This document shows positions 15,223 to 27,487 of a stretch of DNA of 64,000 bases, in pieces. The translations under genes were made by a program, and so were the position numbers. The notes below the pieces were generated by a model that made no database searches, was not told where the DNA came from, and was given only the letters and a program-made list of their open reading frames with translations. This DNA comes from Rhodothermales bacterium (GTDB taxonomy: Bacteria; Bacteroidota; Rhodothermia; Rhodothermales; JANQRZ01). The stretch is taken from the NCBI GenBank assembly GCA_028284265.1, contig JANQRZ010000003.1:186001-250000 (forward strand), read 5' to 3'. Each line of letters opens with the position of its first letter. Positions within the stretch are counted from its first letter, which is position 1.

Positions 15223-18054
15223 CTACCCAACGTTGCCTGTTTCCGGGTCCACCGCTGCCCCATCGCCCGCCGCCGAGGGACGGAACGGAGCTGGGGCCTC
15301 GCCGTGCATCTCAGGCGGGTCGTCGGACGGATCAGGGGTGCAGGCGGCGTGGGCGATCTCGGCGAGGTCGTCGGGGAGGGCATCGGGGTGTGCTTCATAG
15401 ACTGCGTCGAGGGCGCAGGCGAGGGGGCGTGGGTGACGGACGAGAAGCAAATCGCGCAGGGCGCTCTGCCAGGTCGGGAAGGCTTGCTCGGCCATCTCCT
15501 CGGCGACGCGGACATCGCCTTGGTCCGGTGCTTCGTCGAGGAGGGGGACGAGAAAGCGTTTTAGCTCCCAGTCGAGCACGCTGTCGAGGAACTCGGCGGC
15601 GGAGGCGCGGAGCGTATCGTCTTCGGTCAGGCCGAGGTAGGCGCTGTGCATATCCGTCGACGGGTAGCGCAGGCCGAGCATCCGCGAGACGCGCTCTAGG
15701 CTCTGCTCGCGCTCGTGGTACAGGGCCTCGCGCACGAGGGGTGCGCCGGGCGACTGCGTGTAGGCGTCCTTCGCCCGACTGTGGCGGAACAGCGTAGCCT
15801 GCACGGTCGCCAGCGCCCGGATTTCGCCGAGGGCCGCCACGTCAATCGCGGCCTCGTTGAAGCGGAGGCCGGGGTTGCTCGCCCTGATCTTGTTGAGGGC
15901 CTTGACCACGTCGTAGAGCAGCGGGGCGCGCAGGCGCTCCAGACTCAGCAGCATTAGGTCCACCGCCGACTGGGTCGGTAGCTCGGACAGGATGCGCGGG
16001 ATGTTGCGGCGGACCGGCTCGTCCACCTCGTCGTCGGTGAGGTGGTCGTAGAGGGTGCCGAAGATGCGCTCGCCGTAAGCGACCAAGGCTTCACGGGCGG
16101 CTTTCTCATAGGTCTTCTCGCCGAGGAGCCGGAGCAGCTTGCCCACGAACAGCCGGTGCCCAGTTTTGCCCGCCGCGTGAATCGCAGCCCGGACCACTTG
16201 CGGCTGGCTGCGCTCCAAGAGGTCGCGGATCGTGTCATGGAAGGCGGGTCGGTCGAGTGCGCCCATCGCCTTGATCGCCTCGACGCTCGTCTCGATGCGC
16301 GCCGTGCCCGTGTGGTCGAGTAGGCCATGTAGCATCTCGTCGGTGATGAGCGCCTGCTCGGCCTCGGTGCCCGACTCGGCGACGACGCCGATGGCAGCCG
16401 CACGAATGCGGACATCGGGGTGTTCCAGCCCACGCTTCAGGAGAACCTGATGTTTGCTGCCGAGGGTCTGGTAGAGGAAGCGCGCCGCTTCGAGCCGGAC
16501 CTCGGCGTCGCGGTCGGTGAGGTAGGTGGCGATCACGTCGGCGAAGCCCTCCTCGCCCTGCTTCGCTAGAAGGGCGATCACCCGCCGTCGTACCCGCGCC
16601 GAGCGGTGATCGAGCAGGGCGCACGCCCGTTCCACCGGCAACTCGGCGTCGATGGCGTCGAGGGTTTCGAGCGTATCGAGCACCTCCTCAGTATCGTCCG
16701 ACGACAGCGCGCCGACGAGGGTGGGCACGTCCTCGGTGGTGCGTGTTGGTTTGCGATCTTGAGGTGGGGCTGCATCCTCGCGAGGAAGCGTCTCGCGGAA
16801 GGCCTGGACGTAGGACCGCCGTGCCCACAGCACGAGGCCGATCCACAGGGTCAGCAGCGCGAGCACGATCAGGCTGACGCCTTCGAGCGAGACGCCGACC
16901 GCCAGCGCGGCCAAGAGCACGAGGCCCGCCAGTCCCTGCATCCCTTGGTCCACGAACACGTCGATGAACACCTTAGTCTGCTTCTTCACCGCGAGCGGGA
17001 CCGGCAGGAACAACAGCTCGCGTCCGGTTCGGTCGATGGAGTGCTTGAGGCTCTGGTCGGCCCCGCGGAGGAGGACGCCCGCGATAAGGCCGGGCACGAC
17101 GAACATCGCCACCGACCCAACGGCGAGGGCGATGGGCAGCACGAGCAGCGCCCCGCCGACGCCTTGCATACGGATGATCCGGGGGGCGATAAAAAATTGG
17201 AGCGCGAGGGCGATGATGCTGACGCGGGCGTAGAACCGCCCGAGGAACGAGGTCAGGTCGCCCCGCACGGGGAAGGCGTCCGACGAGACCGTCTTGAACT
17301 GGAAATCCACGAGCGCCGTCGTGAGCACCGCCACGGCGATGACGGCGGTGATGAGCTGTAGGTGCCGCGAGTCTTTGAGGAGGCCGAGCACGGGCTGATT
17401 CTCCGTCGGTGTATCGTTCCGGCGCAGCCCCTCGGGGCGTCCGGTTTGCCCGTCCGTCGCCCGCCATCGGATCAGGTTGACGAGCACGACCGTCAGCGTC
17501 AGCACGCCGACTGCCACCCAGAGCAGATCGCGCGTTCGCAGTTCCACTTCCTCGACGAGATAGCCCGTCAGTTCGCCTCCGACGATTGCGCCGAGGATGG
17601 CCCCGAACGAGAGGAGCGCGAAGATGCGCTTCGCTTGGGCCGGGTCGAAGACCGCGCCTGCGAGGAGCCAGTATTGCGAAGTGGCGAGAACGCTGTAGAT
17701 CGAGACCCAGACGTAGAACAGGAAATAGGTCCAGTCGGCTTCCAACGCCACCGCCCACCGCATGACAATGAGCGAGGCGATGAGCACGACCGTCGTCCAG
17801 TTGACCAATCGTGAGAGCTTCACCCGTCGCCCGATCCGCCCGTAGAGGATCGTCACCGGCACCACTGCCGCCGCGGTCGCCAGAAAGACCAGCGGCAGGT
17901 TCACCGCCCCGACCTCGATCAGGAAGAGGCTGTCGCGCGCGGGCTTGAGCAGGTAGAGCGTGACGAGGAGCGCGACGTTGTACGCGAACATCATCCCCAC
18001 GAGCGCTCGCTCGCCGACGCGGAGGTCGAGGATCGTACCAGTCGGAAGGGCCAT
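15223..18054 (-). CDS. ATP/ADP translocase-like (NTT) membrane protein fused to HEAT repeats
   Basis: In this 943-residue protein, residues about 15-420 form a 12-segment NTT/AAA-type carrier with the family's early motif LKPARDSLFLIEVGA; further markers are LATSQYWLLAGAVFDPAQAKR and a late VKKQTKVFIDVFVDQGMQG. Residues about 440-800 are HEAT-like helical repeats (EVLDTLETLDAIDAE, RSARVRRRVIALLAKQGE, DRDAEVRLEAARFL, HPDVRIRAAAIGVVAESG). NTT carriers exchange nucleotides, but HEAT-fused homologues in free-living bacteria are uncharacterised. A paralogue without HEAT repeats lies at 22877-24238. The divergent serA gene starts 117 bp away and both have a TATCTTGC element upstream. Confidence 0.82.
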   Translation of the reverse strand: MALPTGTILDLRVGERALVGMMFAYNVALLVTLYLLKPARDSLFLIEVGAVNLPLVFLATAAAVVPVTILYGRIGRRVKLSRLVNWTTVVLIASLIVMRWAVALEADWTYFLFYVWVSIYSVLATSQYWLLAGAVFDPAQAKRIFALLSFGAILGAIVGGELTGYLVEEVELRTRDLLWVAVGVLTLTVVLVNLIRWRATDGQTGRPEGLRRNDTPTENQPVLGLLKDSRHLQLITAVIAVAVLTTALVDFQFKTVSSDAFPVRGDLTSFLGRFYARVSIIALALQFFIAPRIIRMQGVGGALLVLPIALAVGSVAMFVVPGLIAGVLLRGADQSLKHSIDRTGRELLFLPVPLAVKKQTKVFIDVFVDQGMQGLAGLVLLAALAVGVSLEGVSLIVLALLTLWIGLVLWARRSYVQAFRETLPREDAAPPQDRKPTRTTEDVPTLVGALSSDDTEEVLDTLETLDAIDAELPVERACALLDHRSARVRRRVIALLAKQGEEGFADVIATYLTDRDAEVRLEAARFLYQTLGSKHQVLLKRGLEHPDVRIRAAAIGVVAESGTEAEQALITDEMLHGLLDHTGTARIETSVEAIKAMGALDRPAFHDTIRDLLERSQPQVVRAAIHAAGKTGHRLFVGKLLRLLGEKTYEKAAREALVAYGERIFGTLYDHLTDDEVDEPVRRNIPRILSELPTQSAVDLMLLSLERLRAPLLYDVVKALNKIRASNPGLRFNEAAIDVAALGEIRALATVQATLFRHSRAKDAYTQSPGAPLVREALYHEREQSLERVSRMLGLRYPSTDMHSAYLGLTEDDTLRASAAEFLDSVLDWELKRFLVPLLDEAPDQGDVRVAEEMAEQAFPTWQSALRDLLLVRHPRPLACALDAVYEAHPDALPDDLAEIAHAACTPDPSDDPPEMHGEAPAPFRPSAAGDGAAVDPETGNVG

Positions 18055-19503: not shown

Positions 19504-20580
19504 ATGTTAGATAGTGCAGACCAACCGATGCGATACACGCATCCCTGTGATCATATTCCCTGTGATCATCCGTTCGAGGTTCATGCCGCGGAAGTGTTTC
19601 GTTTGGCGAGCGCAACTCGCTACTATCCAAACTTATGGATTGGTCCCAACGACCATTTCGTCTTCCCCGATCATATCTATAAGTGCCGTACCGTTCGGAT
19701 GGCTGCGGGTGGCCGCGTCAAGTTTAATCTGATGCAACCGTATAACTGGTATGCCTTCGTTGTTGAGGAACTTAAGGTCGATATAGTTGACTCTGATGAC
19801 TTCGACTTGGTCTTTGAGTGGTGGGACCAAACGTTAGGCGAACTCCAGAAGTCACTGATTGGAATAGATGGCGAAAAGGCACCGGATGCACCGATAACCA
19901 AGAAAGGTCGGCCCGGTCCTCCTGGTGAGACTGGGGGGAAGGGGGGGACGCGCCACAGTCCTCACATCTTTCTTTTCGTCCGGCGGATAGTCGGAGCAGA
20001 AGATGATCTAAACCTCACCTCCTTTCATTTCGATCTCAATGGGGTTCCTGGTGGAGTTGGTGGAAAGGGAGGGAGTGGCGGGAAAGGAGACGAGGGGAGA
20101 CGAGGAAAAAATGGCAAAATAGGTAACATATTCACGGGATGTACAGGTGGAAAGCGTGGCAGAAGAGGCGGCGCTCCTGGCAAGGGAGGGCGTGGAGGAG
20201 ATGGAGGCTGTGGGGGCGCAGGTCCCGAGGTACAGATCTACTACGGCGACCAGAACCTCCGCAACGTGTTCGAGAGATCGAAGTACAGTGTGAACGGTGG
20301 CCCGCGCCCTAGTGATGATTTCTACGGCGGTGGCGAGCCGGGGCTAGCGGGCCAGCCGGGAAGGGGCGGGAAGGGCGGAAAGCGCGCTGGTAACTGTGGC
20401 CCAGGTAAGCGAGGCCCTGAGGGAGAGCCAAGCGCTGGCAGTGATGAATGGAACCGCTGGAATCGCGGGCGCGGGCTCCCAGGGACGGAAGGCCCAGACG
20501 GAGACTACGAACTGACGCCCATTGAACCCGGCTCTATTGAAGAAAGCGTGTTCCTCGACCCCATCCCCGTATCCGGGTAA
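19504..20580 (+). CDS. Collagen-like glycine-rich protein of unknown function
   Basis: The 358-residue protein starts MLDSADQPMRYTHPC. Residues 1-130 are non-repetitive and beta-rich (NLWIGPNDHFVFPDHIYKC, AAGGRVKFNLMQPYNWYAFV). Then come collagen-like G-X-Y tracts: RPGPPGETGGKGG, GVPGGVGGKGGSGGKGDEG, PGKGGRGGDGGCGGAGP and EPGLAGQPGRGGKGGKRAG, separated by short ordered segments such as HIFLFVRRIVGAEDDLNL and VQIYYGDQNLRNVFERSKYS. There is no signal peptide, membrane segment or T9SS domain. Base composition in the first half is visibly more AT-rich than the neighbours, suggesting transfer. It stands alone with 100-bp spacers. I do not recognise a named family. Confidence 0.75.
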   Translation: MLDSADQPMRYTHPCDHIPCDHPFEVHAAEVFRLASATRYYPNLWIGPNDHFVFPDHIYKCRTVRMAAGGRVKFNLMQPYNWYAFVVEELKVDIVDSDDFDLVFEWWDQTLGELQKSLIGIDGEKAPDAPITKKGRPGPPGETGGKGGTRHSPHIFLFVRRIVGAEDDLNLTSFHFDLNGVPGGVGGKGGSGGKGDEGRRGKNGKIGNIFTGCTGGKRGRRGGAPGKGGRGGDGGCGGAGPEVQIYYGDQNLRNVFERSKYSVNGGPRPSDDFYGGGEPGLAGQPGRGGKGGKRAGNCGPGKRGPEGEPSAGSDEWNRWNRGRGLPGTEGPDGDYELTPIEPGSIEESVFLDPIPVSG

Positions 20581-22876: not shown

Positions 22877-24238
22877 TCACGCGGATGATTGCCCGCGGGC
22901 TTCCATCTCGGCGAACTGCCGACCGGCGTAGCGTGCGGCGACGGCCCACACCGCGACGAGCGCGAGGGTGAGCAGGCTCAGCCACCGGATCGTCGAGAAG
23001 TCGGCGAAGATGAGCGTGACGAGGAGGCTCACGCCGACGGCGACGGACTTGGCGAAGCGCTGCACGAACATGTCGATGAACGCCTTAGCCTTGTACTTCT
23101 CGTCGCGTGTCGTCGGCGTGTAAAGCGCTTCTCTCGCGGATTGGTTGATCGAGTACGCGAACGCGCTGTCGGTGGTGTTGAGGAGCGAGCCGACCCACAG
23201 GGTCGGTACGGCTAGGAAGGCGACCGAGCCGAGGACCATCACGAACGGGGTGATGAGGAGCGCCGTCGTCAGCCCAAAGCGCCGCATCACAACCGTCGTC
23301 AGGAAGATCTGCACGACGAGCGCGACGACGTTCGAGATCGCGAAGACCGTCGCGAACTGCTGGCCGATGGCGGGGCCGTCGAGGTAGTAGGCAATCGTTG
23401 AGGAGAACTGGAAGTCGAGGATCGTCGAGACAATCTCGTAGATGCCGACGATGGCAACGATGGAGAGGAGGTACTTCGAGCGGAAGACGAGCCGCGCCCC
23501 TTCGAGCGCCGCGTTCGATTTCTTCGTCGCGGCCTCGTCGCGCCTTGGGTCGATGCCTTCGCGTGCCACTTCCGGCGGCGGGTTCTGCCGGACGATCCGC
23601 CCGGCCACGTACGCCAGCCCGATGATCGCCACGGCCATCCCGAAGCAGATCCACAGCCACGCCGAGACAGGAATGTCGTCGATGTAAACCGCGAGAAAGG
23701 TCGTCCCGAACGCCCCGCCCGCGACGCCGCCGAGGACGACGAGTCCGTAGAGCCGCTTCGCCGCGCTCGGCGTCACGCTGTCGTTGAGGAACGCGAAGAA
23801 TGTCGCCACCATCAGCGTCGTCCACAGGTCGCCGAAGAGGTAGAAGCTCCAGACCGTCGCCCCGCCGGGGTCGTTGATGATGAGCGAATAGGCCGCGAAC
23901 GCTGCGAGAAAGAATCCAGCGAAGGCGTAGGTCAGTTGCTCCCGCCGCATCCGCCGCGCGAGGATCGTGAACACGACGACGGCCACCGCCGCGACGACCA
24001 TGTTCAGCACCTTCGCCAGCAACTCTGCCTGCGAGGCCAGCAGTTCTAGCTGAAACAGACCGCTGATCGCGAGGGTGAAGCCTTCCTCATCGTAGAACTG
24101 GATGAACAGGCTCTTCTTGATCGGCTTGAGAATCCAGAAGGAGGTGATGACGAGGAAGAAGTACCCGAACATCGAGAGTGCCAGCGGCCACTCGTCGCGG
24201 CGGAGGTCGAGAAACTCGTCTTTGAGCCGTTGGAGCAT
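22877..24238 (-). CDS. NTT-like (Npt1/Npt2) membrane transporter
   Basis: The 453-residue carrier has about 12 membrane segments. The N-terminus MLQRLKDEFLDLRRDEWPLA leads into WILKPIKKSLFIQFYDEEGF, the family's first-helix motif. It goes on with YLFGDLWTTLMVATFFAFLN, SVTPSAAKRLYGLVVLGGVA, NQSAREALYTPTTRDEKYKA and AFIDMFVQRFAKSVAVG. The last feature matches the late motif of the HEAT-fused paralogue at 15223-18054. Homologues in obligate intracellular bacteria import ATP or NTPs; the substrate in free-living relatives is unknown. The C-terminal 43 codons are repeated 1.9 kb downstream as a gene remnant. Confidence 0.85.
   Translation of the reverse strand: MLQRLKDEFLDLRRDEWPLALSMFGYFFLVITSFWILKPIKKSLFIQFYDEEGFTLAISGLFQLELLASQAELLAKVLNMVVAAVAVVVFTILARRMRREQLTYAFAGFFLAAFAAYSLIINDPGGATVWSFYLFGDLWTTLMVATFFAFLNDSVTPSAAKRLYGLVVLGGVAGGAFGTTFLAVYIDDIPVSAWLWICFGMAVAIIGLAYVAGRIVRQNPPPEVAREGIDPRRDEAATKKSNAALEGARLVFRSKYLLSIVAIVGIYEIVSTILDFQFSSTIAYYLDGPAIGQQFATVFAISNVVALVVQIFLTTVVMRRFGLTTALLITPFVMVLGSVAFLAVPTLWVGSLLNTTDSAFAYSINQSAREALYTPTTRDEKYKAKAFIDMFVQRFAKSVAVGVSLLVTLIFADFSTIRWLSLLTLALVAVWAVAARYAGRQFAEMEARGQSSA
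22901..23029 (-). repeat. 129-bp direct repeat flanking the SLC13 gene, right copy
   Basis: Lies inside the 3' end of the intact translocase gene; 12 differences from 20855-20983. Confidence 0.88.
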
Positions 24239-24262: not shown

Positions 24263-24350
24263 TGTCATCTCGAGCGAAGCGAGAAGTCCCCGTCGTTGAA
24301 TCTATCTCTGAGGTTGGAGATTTCTCCTCGCTACGCTTGTCGAAATGACA
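24263..24350. repeat. Dispersed hairpin repeat, family 1 (TGTCATCTCGAGCGAAGC)
   Basis: An 88-bp imperfect inverted repeat with ends TGTCATCTCGA and TCGAAATGACA, and inner arms GCGAGAAG against CTCCTCGC. It fills the gap between two minus-strand genes. The same design occurs at 45524-45646. This type of GTCATxTCGA...TCGAxATGAC hairpin is a common non-coding dispersed element in Bacteroidota. Confidence 0.75.
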
Positions 24351-24365: not shown

Positions 24366-26162
24366 CTACTCCCGCTCGATGCCGACGACGCGGATACGGC
24401 CATCGGTGGGGAAATGGAGGTAGACGTTCACGGCGTCGCTCGGCTCGTGCCCGTCGCGGAGGGTGACGAGTTCGACGCGGAGCACGCGGTCGTCCTCGTC
24501 GGATGAGTCGAGGGCAGAGGCAGGAAGCGCTGGAACCGGGACGCTCGGCGCGTCGGCGATGCCGTCAGAGAGTTGAGTGCCGTCGTGATGGACGGTGTAG
24601 GCGTAGCGGCTCGACGCATCGCTTTCCAGCCCGTAGGTCACAGCGAGGTCGTCGAACTCCAGCACGAACGGGCGTACTCCAGCTACATTTTCTGAGCCGA
24701 CTCGCTGTCCATCAACGTAGTAAGCCACAGGACCGCCGCGAATGGAGAGATCGGTGTCGCCGCCAATGTTGTCTAGCCGCGCAAGCACAAATCGGTCGAG
24801 GGGGTTGACCTGCTGGAACCAGTAGCGCCCGATGGCTTCGCGGCGGGCGAGGAGGGTCTGAACGAGGTACTCCTCGGCCTCGGGATCAGTGAGTTGCCCC
24901 TCATCCACGATGGCGCGGACATCGGCTTCGGTGAAAGCCATCACGCGCTTCGCGCCCCAGAAGCCGTCGCGGTCGGTGCGGTACTCATAGGCCGGGTTCG
25001 GGTGGACCATCACCCAGTCCTCCGGCTCGAAATACTCCGCCGTGAAATAGCCGATCGACGGGTACTTGATTTCCAGCGGCTGGAACTCCCACGGCTTCGG
25101 GTCGACGCCGAGGGTGACGGTCTGGTAGGCCATCGTGCGCGGGTCGAAGAGGTACTCCTGCCCGTGCTGGACGATGTGCGTGCCGGAGCCGTTCGCGCCG
25201 AGGGTCGAGCCCATGTCGAGGACGTAGTGCTTGATGTAGCGCGCCGTATCGCCGGGGGCACGGATGTCGGTCGTGTAAACCGAGAGCGTGTTCGCGTTGC
25301 GGCGGTCGGCGTCGTTGAGCCACGACCCGAGGACCGAGAGGCCGCGAAGCTCGCGGCGGTGCTCGTGGCGGACGCGGTCGTTGGGGTCGTCGCGCTTGGT
25401 TCCCCGGAAGGTCCAGATGCCGATGGGGCGACCGTTGACGTACTTACTCGCCATTGCCCGGATGTGTCCGTCGGCGCGGCGCGGCTGGGGATCGAGGATG
25501 GCGGCGAGGTCGGCGTCGGTCATCAGGCGATCTTCGCCCTCGACCGTCACCTCGGCCTCGGGATCGAGCGCGATGATCGCGGGGTCGAAGTAGGTGATCG
25601 TGTTCTGGGGGACGAAGTACCCGGCGGCGTGGTAGATCTTGGTCGAGATCACCTCGGCGGATGAGGTCAGTTCGGGGTAGTTCGGGCCGTCAAACTTAAT
25701 GATGTAGCGGTCGCCGCGCGCGTCTCTGATCGTGAAGCCCTTCGTCTTGCCCTCGCTCTTACCCGCGATCACCGTCCACGCTGAGAGGTCGGGTCCGTCG
25801 GTGACGTTGGGGCCGCGCCGCAACTCATCTTCCGACATCGGGAAGTAGAAGTGCCGCTGCGTGAACCACGACGAGTTCGGCACCTCGTCGAGCATATTGA
25901 CGTTCTGCGCTTCCTTCGGTCCGACGAGACCGAGACCCTGCACGAGTTTGCGGAACGTCCAGTTGAGGTCGAGCGGCTTCTGGATTTGGTAGAAGAACGT
26001 CCGGTCAATGGGGTCCCAGTACTGGTTCTCGCGGGCCTCGACGGGGCGCGGGATGTCACGGTTGTCTGGGTCAGACGTCTTGATCGGCCCGGTGGTGTAG
26101 GGCTTCGTGCCTGCGCACCCGGCGAGGAGCAGAGCCAAAAGGAGGAGGGTGTATCGCATCAT
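24366..26162 (-). CDS. Lipoprotein with kinase-like residue pattern, coupled to an outer-membrane barrel
   Basis: The 598-residue protein starts MMRYTLLLLALLLAGCAGTK with lipobox LAGC (Cys16). No family name is certain. The middle has the spacing of a HipA/FAM20C-like kinase core: a strand with Lys156 (DRYIIKFD), Glu170 in a following helix (TSSAEVISTKIYHAAGYFVP), a loop WLNDADRRNANTL (Asp284, Asp286, Arg287, Asn289, Asn291), and then HYVLDMGSTLGANG (Asp316). Catalytic function is inference. Its ATG overlaps the stop of the upstream beta-barrel gene (TGATG), so the pair is translationally coupled. A location at the periplasmic face of the outer membrane is likely, where ATP would be lacking. 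Confidence 0.7.
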   Translation of the reverse strand: MMRYTLLLLALLLAGCAGTKPYTTGPIKTSDPDNRDIPRPVEARENQYWDPIDRTFFYQIQKPLDLNWTFRKLVQGLGLVGPKEAQNVNMLDEVPNSSWFTQRHFYFPMSEDELRRGPNVTDGPDLSAWTVIAGKSEGKTKGFTIRDARGDRYIIKFDGPNYPELTSSAEVISTKIYHAAGYFVPQNTITYFDPAIIALDPEAEVTVEGEDRLMTDADLAAILDPQPRRADGHIRAMASKYVNGRPIGIWTFRGTKRDDPNDRVRHEHRRELRGLSVLGSWLNDADRRNANTLSVYTTDIRAPGDTARYIKHYVLDMGSTLGANGSGTHIVQHGQEYLFDPRTMAYQTVTLGVDPKPWEFQPLEIKYPSIGYFTAEYFEPEDWVMVHPNPAYEYRTDRDGFWGAKRVMAFTEADVRAIVDEGQLTDPEAEEYLVQTLLARREAIGRYWFQQVNPLDRFVLARLDNIGGDTDLSIRGGPVAYYVDGQRVGSENVAGVRPFVLEFDDLAVTYGLESDASSRYAYTVHHDGTQLSDGIADAPSVPVPALPASALDSSDEDDRVLRVELVTLRDGHEPSDAVNVYLHFPTDGRIRVVGIERE

Positions 26163-27487
26163 CAAAACGAGGTGCCGACTTGGGCGATCAGGCGCGGTGG
26201 ACCTTCGGGGCTGAAGGCGAGTTCGAGGCGGGCCGCGACGTTGCTGCCGCCGTAGACCCGGAAGCCGCCGCCGAAGTCGGTGTGGAAGTCGTCGAAGCCA
26301 ATCTCGTCGAAGTCATCGAAGACCTGCCCGGCGTCGGCGAAGAGGACAGCGTCGAAGGTGTTGAAGATGGGCCAGCGGTACTCGGCGGTCAGGAGCAGGC
26401 TGCCTTGGTCGCGGAAGCGGTCGAAGCGGAAGCCGCGCAGGTCGTCTGGCCCGCCGAGGGTGGCGAGTTCGTAGAACGGCACCGTGTCGTCGCCGGGCGC
26501 GTTGACGCGGACCAACCGAGCGCGCAGGCCGAGCCGCCGGTCGAAGGGGAGGAACGGGACTGGCACGAATTGCCGGACCTCGGCGGAGGTGCGGAGGTAG
26601 CCGAGCGCTCCCTCTGCCGGGGCTGTCGAAAGGTCGGTGCCATAGCGAACACCGAGCAGGACTGCGGTGCCCTTGTAGGTACGGGGCGCATACAGCCCGC
26701 CTGCCGTGGTGAAGTCGAGCGTGAGGAGGCCGCCGACCGAGAGGAAGTCGGCTCCGCCGAAACCGGGGACGCCCGCCGGGAACGGCTCGCCGTCGTCGAT
26801 GCTGAGTACCTCGAAGTGCTCGAACTCGCCGTCGGTCGTCACGCGAATCCGGTCGGTGAGGGGAAGGTCGAGGGTGAGTCCCGCGCGTCCCTGTTCGGAG
26901 GCGTACTCGATCAACTCATCGTCATCGCTGTCGTTGCCGATGGCGAAGAAGTTTTCCTCAGCGTCGCGTTCGTAGCCGCCGCTGACCGTCAGGCCGAGCG
27001 GGCTGCCGCCGAGGCGTAGGGCTTGGAACCGACCGAAGGCGGCATACGAGCCGTCCGCCGCGTAGCGCCCGCCGATGCGTCCGCTGCGGCCCGGCCCGAG
27101 CAGGCCCTCGGTGGCGAATACGGTGAGGCCGCCTGCAAGCCCTTCGCGCCCACCCGCGCTGACGGTGGGCAGGGCGTAGAAGGCCGGTCGCTCCTGAAGC
27201 AAACGCTGCCCCTTCTCAATCGTACCGCTGTACTCGGCGTAGAGCACGACGGAGCGAAACAGGTAGGCTACCCCGCCCCAGACCGTCGCTGGGAGCGCGA
27301 GGGCGTGCGCGCCGAGGCTCGTCTCGGTCTCGTAAGGAATCCGGTTCGGGTCGGACGCTTGGTTGGCCTCGTCGTCCGGGGCCGGTTCCTGAACCGTCGC
27401 GACGGAGTCGGCAGGGGTGAGGTACTGAGCGCGGGCGGGCGAGGCGGCGAGGGCGACCGCGAGCGCGCACAGGAAGGCGAAGCGCAT
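26162..27487 (-). CDS. BamA/TamA-type outer-membrane beta-barrel protein
   Basis: The protein has 441 residues from MRFAFLCALAVALAASPARAQ (signal peptide). Most of it is alternating beta strands, ending in LIAQVGTSF with the C-terminal Phe expected for BAM-inserted barrels. The motif LGGPDDLRGFRFDRFRDQ corresponds to the Omp85 (bacterial surface antigen D15) strand motif with its RGF core, and LLLTAEYRWPIF and AVLFADAGQVFDD follow as in BamA. POTRA domains are not evident: only about 100 residues precede the barrel, so this is a short Omp85 member rather than BamA itself. The gene is directly coupled to the kinase-like lipoprotein. Confidence 0.82.
   Translation of the reverse strand: MRFAFLCALAVALAASPARAQYLTPADSVATVQEPAPDDEANQASDPNRIPYETETSLGAHALALPATVWGGVAYLFRSVVLYAEYSGTIEKGQRLLQERPAFYALPTVSAGGREGLAGGLTVFATEGLLGPGRSGRIGGRYAADGSYAAFGRFQALRLGGSPLGLTVSGGYERDAEENFFAIGNDSDDDELIEYASEQGRAGLTLDLPLTDRIRVTTDGEFEHFEVLSIDDGEPFPAGVPGFGGADFLSVGGLLTLDFTTAGGLYAPRTYKGTAVLLGVRYGTDLSTAPAEGALGYLRTSAEVRQFVPVPFLPFDRRLGLRARLVRVNAPGDDTVPFYELATLGGPDDLRGFRFDRFRDQGSLLLTAEYRWPIFNTFDAVLFADAGQVFDDFDEIGFDDFHTDFGGGFRVYGGSNVAARLELAFSPEGPPRLIAQVGTSF

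Follow-up and report, generated by a model that had tools for sequence, protein, structure and literature searches.

An exported kinase-fold lipoprotein pairs with an Omp85-type barrel and co-occurs with NTT-class ATP/ADP translocase genes

How could a kinase work at the outer membrane of a bacterium, when the bacterial periplasm is, to our knowledge, generally taken to be ATP-free? The question is raised by a lipoprotein gene in the 64-kb window analysed here (the whole stretch of 64,000 nucleotides from a Rhodothermales bacterium; contig JANQRZ010000003.1, positions 186,001 to 250,000 of the forward strand). The original prediction, made from the sequence letters, saw a HipA/FAM20C-like catalytic pattern in this lipoprotein, coupled it to an Omp85-type barrel gene and, because ATP is scarce at that site, suggested a repurposed fold. 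Our results keep the kinase fold and the barrel and turn against the repurposed fold: the main family keeps its catalytic residues without exception, and genes for NTT-class ATP/ADP translocases are recurrent neighbours of the lipoprotein gene and co-occur with it across genomes, which makes them direct candidates for solving the ATP problem. We consider it probable that the lipoprotein is exported, anchored in the outer membrane and active as a kinase (or another ATP-dependent transferase), and that it works with a POTRA-less Omp85 barrel and is fed by NTT-mediated ATP/ADP exchange.

The features concerned are given below in window positions; the barrel, the kinase-fold lipoprotein and both NTT genes all lie on the (-) strand.

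26162..27487 (-): POTRA-less Omp85-type barrel, 441 amino acids, with signal peptide and LRGF motif (PF01103; AlphaFold2 (AF2) model; Foldseek)
24366..26162 (-): exported lipoprotein, 598 amino acids, with atypical kinase core and C-terminal FN3-like domain (open reading frame; lipobox; AF2 model; fold matches)
Codon 26117-26115 (-): Cys16 of the lipobox LLAGC (lipoprotein sequence)
24807..25802 (-): kinase core, residues ~121-452 (VIA-align; residue invariance; hhalign equivalence to HipA)
25697-25695 (-): kinase-core K156
25655-25653 (-): kinase-core E170
25307-25305 (-): kinase-core D286
25292-25290 (-): kinase-core N291
25217-25215 (-): kinase-core D316
24402..24806 (-): C-terminal FN3-like beta-sandwich, residues ~453-587, with a low-confidence insert at 467-482 (VIA-align Z ~7.5-8.2 with many FN3 domains)
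24263..24350 (-): strong hairpin after the lipoprotein stop and before the NTT start (RNA fold -37.4 kcal/mol, z -4.3)
22877..24238 (-): single-domain NTT (TLC), ATP/ADP-translocase-like, 453 amino acids (PF03219, E 1.4e-24)
15223..18054 (-): second NTT, a HEAT-repeat fusion (NTT-HEAT), 943 amino acids (PF03219, E 2.6e-14; PF13646)

The stop codon of the barrel gene (TGA, 26164-26162) overlaps the ATG of the lipoprotein gene (26162-26160) by one base, the A, giving TGATG. This overlap, the gene coordinates, the length of 598 amino acids, K156, E170, the Asp/Asn loop and the DMGS motif with D316 are all as first described. The two NTT genes, at 22877-24238 and 15223-18054, did not figure in that description; the former is the next gene downstream of the lipoprotein gene, on the same strand and after a gap of 127 bp.

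The AF2 model of the lipoprotein is confident (predicted local distance difference test score (pLDDT) 92.7; predicted template modelling score 0.91) and contains a kinase-like lobe. Using VIA-align, the kinase core matched six kinase families over 204-258 residues, with Z scores of 14.6 for CtkA (236 residues), 13.6 for FAM20C, 12.9 for PI4KIIalpha, 12.3 for CotH, 11.3 for HipT and 10.6 for HipA, all above those of the FN3-domain matches, which cover residues 453-587 (Z ~8). Foldseek alone placed Golgi casein kinase (FAM20) structures at the top rank (E ~1e-3). Profile alignment with hhalign against eight HipA proteins gave an E value of 0.0013 with a probability of only 18%, and paired all five catalytic positions (K156/E170/D286/N291/D316 with K181/E203/D309/N314/D332 of Escherichia coli HipA); the HipA positions are invariant within the HipA alignment, and K181, D309, N314 and D332 are active-site residues of HipA. 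The family profile compared with E. coli HipA alone gave nothing significant. As modelled, the lipoprotein belongs to the atypical protein-kinase fold class of the CtkA/HipA/FAM20C/PI4KII/CotH type. The Ser/Thr kinases CtkA, HipA and HipT are the nearest solved folds to its core; unlike them, the lipoprotein is exported, carries an FN3-like domain and has a barrel partner in the place of the antitoxin. CotH, which acts on the spore coat, and PI4KII, a eukaryotic lipid kinase, share the fold class, but neither is a barrel-paired lipoprotein.

We scanned about 85,000 genomes and found 227 relatives; counts of loci and alignments rest on the best 80 of these, and residue conservation was counted in an alignment of 77 homologues. 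The best 80 come from about 12 phyla: Bacteroidota/Rhodothermota/Balneolota, KSB1, Calditrichota, Latescibacterota, Gemmatimonadota, Nitrospirota, Acidobacteriota, Zixibacteria, Marinimicrobia, Krumholzibacteriota, Eisenbacteria and Fibrobacteria. The motifs of the window protein, K156, E170, WLNDADRRNANTL (D286 and N291) and DMGS (D316), recur in the family consensus EGxTPGF...YxIKFD...AEVIST...NHxDxKxxN...HYLIDFGSTLGS, in which HxDxKxxN is followed by DFG, the ordinary kinase order. Conservation of the catalytic motifs, on which the original prediction depended, is complete for K156, D286, N291 and D316 (77/77), as it is for K135, G138, G142, D262, H312, G322, D399, W402 and R440; W99 and R103 are further invariant residues, and 59 of the 77 retain E170. 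Nearly all homologues have a signal peptide and most have a lipobox.

Sequence databases give this family little company. The lipoprotein has a sub-threshold Pfam match to HipA_2 alone (PF20613, E 0.028, 14.1 bits against a cut-off of 27), no NCBIfam match and no PDB sequence match, and a direct sequence relation to solved structures was not found. Across the 77 members, HipA_2 matches six weakly (best E 0.0055) and HipA_C (PF07804) matches three (best E 0.03); the FAM20 and CotH Pfam models match none at E 0.1, and the likeness to those proteins is one of fold alone. An identity as a HipA toxin-antitoxin system was dropped, as the protein is exported, lacks a helix-turn-helix antitoxin partner (its place in the locus being taken by the Omp85 barrel) and scores below the Pfam cut-off. 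The lipoprotein represents a new family in a known kinase fold class; it is not a HipA toxin, and its kinase activity is predicted.

The chemistry could differ from phosphotransfer. An exported nucleotide-dependent transferase might use NTT-supplied ATP to place AMP, as SelO does, or another group onto the barrel or its cargo; the fold and nucleotide-site residues would suit any ATP-using member of the superfamily, and the invariant D399, W402, R440, W99 and R103 point to added family-specific chemistry or structure. The canonical HxDxKxxN loop and DFG in ordinary order nevertheless favour ordinary phosphotransfer, and no AMPylation-specific feature was seen, which makes this alternative unlikely.

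The firmest partner of the kinase-fold lipoprotein is the barrel: of the 71 loci long enough to show it, 67 have it directly upstream of the kinase gene, at a median distance of 32 bp, a result that answers the earlier call for a survey of this pairing across genomes. The predicted Omp85 identity was borne out by a match of the window protein to PF01103 (E 1.1e-12), a family that also matches 57 of 58 barrel orthologues, and by an AF2 model (pLDDT 87.5) that shows 16 strands, has two N-terminal helices (segment 58-98) and matches BamA/TamA in Foldseek (E ~1e-12). The barrel shares its fold and its LRGF loop motif (RGF/Y type) with BamA/TamA barrels and TamL-type lipoproteins. It differs from these in that no POTRA model of Pfam matches any of the 58 orthologues and in that its constant partner is a kinase-fold lipoprotein. 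Judged by profile and model together, it is a true member of the Omp85 superfamily, but no BamA/TamA orthologue.

The PF03219 match scores 87.3 bits for the single-domain NTT of the window and 53.3 bits for NTT-HEAT (cut-off, 21), and they are the only two NTTs found in the source genome. The PDB relatives of the single-domain protein are the ADP,ATP carriers 9j3j and 9j3n, including plastid carriers. In the two nearest relatives, the same NTT gene comes after the kinase gene. Counted with an NTT-only profile, an NTT lies within about 5 kb of the kinase gene in 29 of the 51 loci with adequate flanks, on the same strand in 31 of 36 cases. Of 44 further kinase genomes, most of which were picked for having no NTT in the flanks, 41 likewise carry an NTT. 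In plastid NTT1, K527 serves in ATP binding and E245 in translocation (PMC3306366); the single-domain NTT of the window appears to keep the charged positions K41, D137, D275 and K397, of which D137 falls at the E245 position and K397 at the K527 position, and NTT-HEAT has Ser and Gln at these positions (both mappings by alignment offset).

Co-occurrence extends beyond gene neighbourhood. We compared genomes with an intact kinase to those without a kinase in samples from three phyla: an NTT is present in all 20 of the former (11/11, 2/2 and 7/7) and in 66 of the 640 of the latter (14/381, 8/116 and 44/143), with a pooled Cochran–Mantel–Haenszel P of ~2e-28 across the three phyla, a statistic that ignores relatedness. 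Among the 27 genomes compared from the family of Salinibacter, there is a natural pseudokinase control. A sister group seen here in Salinibacter relatives only (five loci) no longer has K156, D286 and N291, with D316 partly lost as well, and retains both the barrel partner and the invariant residues outside the catalytic set. NTTs are found in 13 of 14 genomes of this family with an intact kinase, the exception being a genome that is 56% complete, in none of six with the degenerate homologue only, in none of six without any homologue and not in the one genome with a kinase fragment only. On an RpoB tree, all eight independent pairs are concordant (P 0.008), as are all five among genomes that are at least 90% complete. 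Association with an NTT depends on the catalytic integrity of the kinase-fold protein.

The same sister group argues for a catalytically silent, repurposed fold that caps or chaperones the barrel in the periplasm, with an incidental NTT association: it has dispensed with the catalytic residues and retained the barrel, showing that some members of the family have a non-catalytic role. For the family as a whole we judge this decidedly unlikely, as the catalytic residues of the main family are invariant over about 12 phyla and track the presence of an NTT. Nucleotide scavenging, in which the barrel would admit extracellular nucleotides, the lipoprotein bind them, phosphoesterases trim them and the NTT import them, fits the phosphoesterase neighbours, the nearly constant barrel and the role of NTTs of intracellular bacteria as nucleotide importers (PMC5381601), but is very unlikely, as mere binding would not require the catalytic Asp, its Asn and the DFG Asp to be invariant (77/77) and degenerate-only genomes retain the barrel without an NTT, which ties the NTT to catalysis and not to the barrel.

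An exported kinase paired with the barrel would work as follows. Sec export and lipidation would leave the enzyme tethered to the outer membrane on its periplasmic side, as the signal peptide, lipobox and partner suggest. It would dock on the barrel encoded immediately upstream, where the N-terminal region and the FN3-like domain may replace the missing POTRA domains, as linkage and the overlapping reading frames suggest. An inner-membrane NTT would swap cytosolic ATP for periplasmic ADP, a step to which neighbourhood and co-occurrence point; through this exchange the enzyme would have its substrate and its product would be recycled. Phosphate would then pass to a putative envelope acceptor: the barrel, barrel cargo, a lipid or a glycan. 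The commonest other families among 80 operon-like neighbour proteins are PAP2 (12) and calcineurin-type Metallophos (7); these phosphatases might reverse or complete a phosphate cycle, and hint faintly at a lipid or envelope phosphate economy. That a kinase-fold protein sits nearly always beside a barrel and very often with a transporter suggests deliberate export of ATP by some free-living bacteria, which would then carry out phosphorylation outside the cytoplasm. More tentatively, free-living diderms of about 12 phyla may export ATP through NTTs to power a barrel-bound outer-membrane kinase, with a periplasm that holds usable ATP.

Several observations weigh against an ATP-fed exported kinase. 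Catalysis and ATP export are predictions from sequences and models, and the direction and substrate of the NTT class are putative. The K527-equivalent lysine is absent from NTT-HEAT proteins, and Asp takes its position in half of the kinase-neighbouring single-domain NTTs, so the substrate may differ. NTTs that occur without a kinase (those 66 of 640 genomes) must have other jobs too, and no NTT was detected in the remaining 3 of the 44 further kinase genomes, some of which are partial assemblies. Kinase and NTT genes are linked in many genomes of the Salinibacter family, so some co-losses were possibly single deletions; the NTT is unlinked in several others. The barrel retained beside degenerate homologues implies that part of the function needs no catalysis. 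Some homologues have a plain signal peptide and no lipobox. Within the window, the hairpin that separates the lipoprotein gene from the NTT gene may restrict read-through and decouple expression of the NTT.

The closest working analogue of the proposed barrel-kinase-translocase module is the FAM20 kinases together with SLC35B1. FAM20C/FAM20A resemble the lipoprotein in fold and in a topologically equivalent site outside the cytosol, and both kinds of enzyme need ATP carried over a membrane. ATP in the lumen of the endoplasmic reticulum is delivered by the ATP/ADP exchanger SLC35B1/AXER (PMC6113206). The lipoprotein differs from that pair in being bacterial, without detectable sequence relation and Omp85-coupled, and its transporter is of the unrelated NTT class. 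The window NTTs share PF03219 and both of their architectures with those catalogued for free-living bacteria by Major et al. 2017 (PMC5381601); the sections of that work cited here describe NTTs as common in free-living bacteria, treat the role of these 'parasite-type' ATP/ADP translocases there as an open question and the function of NTT fusions as unknown, and mention no link to an exported kinase. We found no paper that ties an exported bacterial kinase to an NTT in the open-access literature, beyond which such papers may exist, and the module is apparently undescribed. An exported kinase whose presence and catalytic residues track an NTT makes both periplasmic ATP and the NTT role testable with three genes. 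If the proposal is true, bacteria have their own version of what FAM20 and SLC35B1 do in the eukaryotic secretory pathway, post-translational or lipid phosphorylation is added to outer-membrane biology, and NTT transporters gain a physiological role outside parasites and plastids.

Other identities were considered for the locus. A defence system was dropped, as PADLOC gave no match for the lipoprotein, and plasmid or phage cargo was dropped after tblastn against a plasmid collection and a phage collection gave no match in either. The hairpin at 24263-24350 has one copy in the window and resembles a dispersed intergenic hairpin element. At 19504-20577 (+), the window encodes a glycine-rich, collagen-like low-complexity protein of 358 amino acids without a Pfam match. 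In Zixibacteria and similar genomes (six loci), a conserved exported family of ~430 amino acids with a weak RelA/SpoT-domain match (E 0.008) comes right after the kinase gene, mostly followed by a PAP2 phosphatase. In Nitrospira and relatives (seven loci), a PAP2 phosphatase gene lies just upstream of the barrel gene, and an exported protein of ~310 amino acids is encoded downstream of the kinase in this type of cluster.

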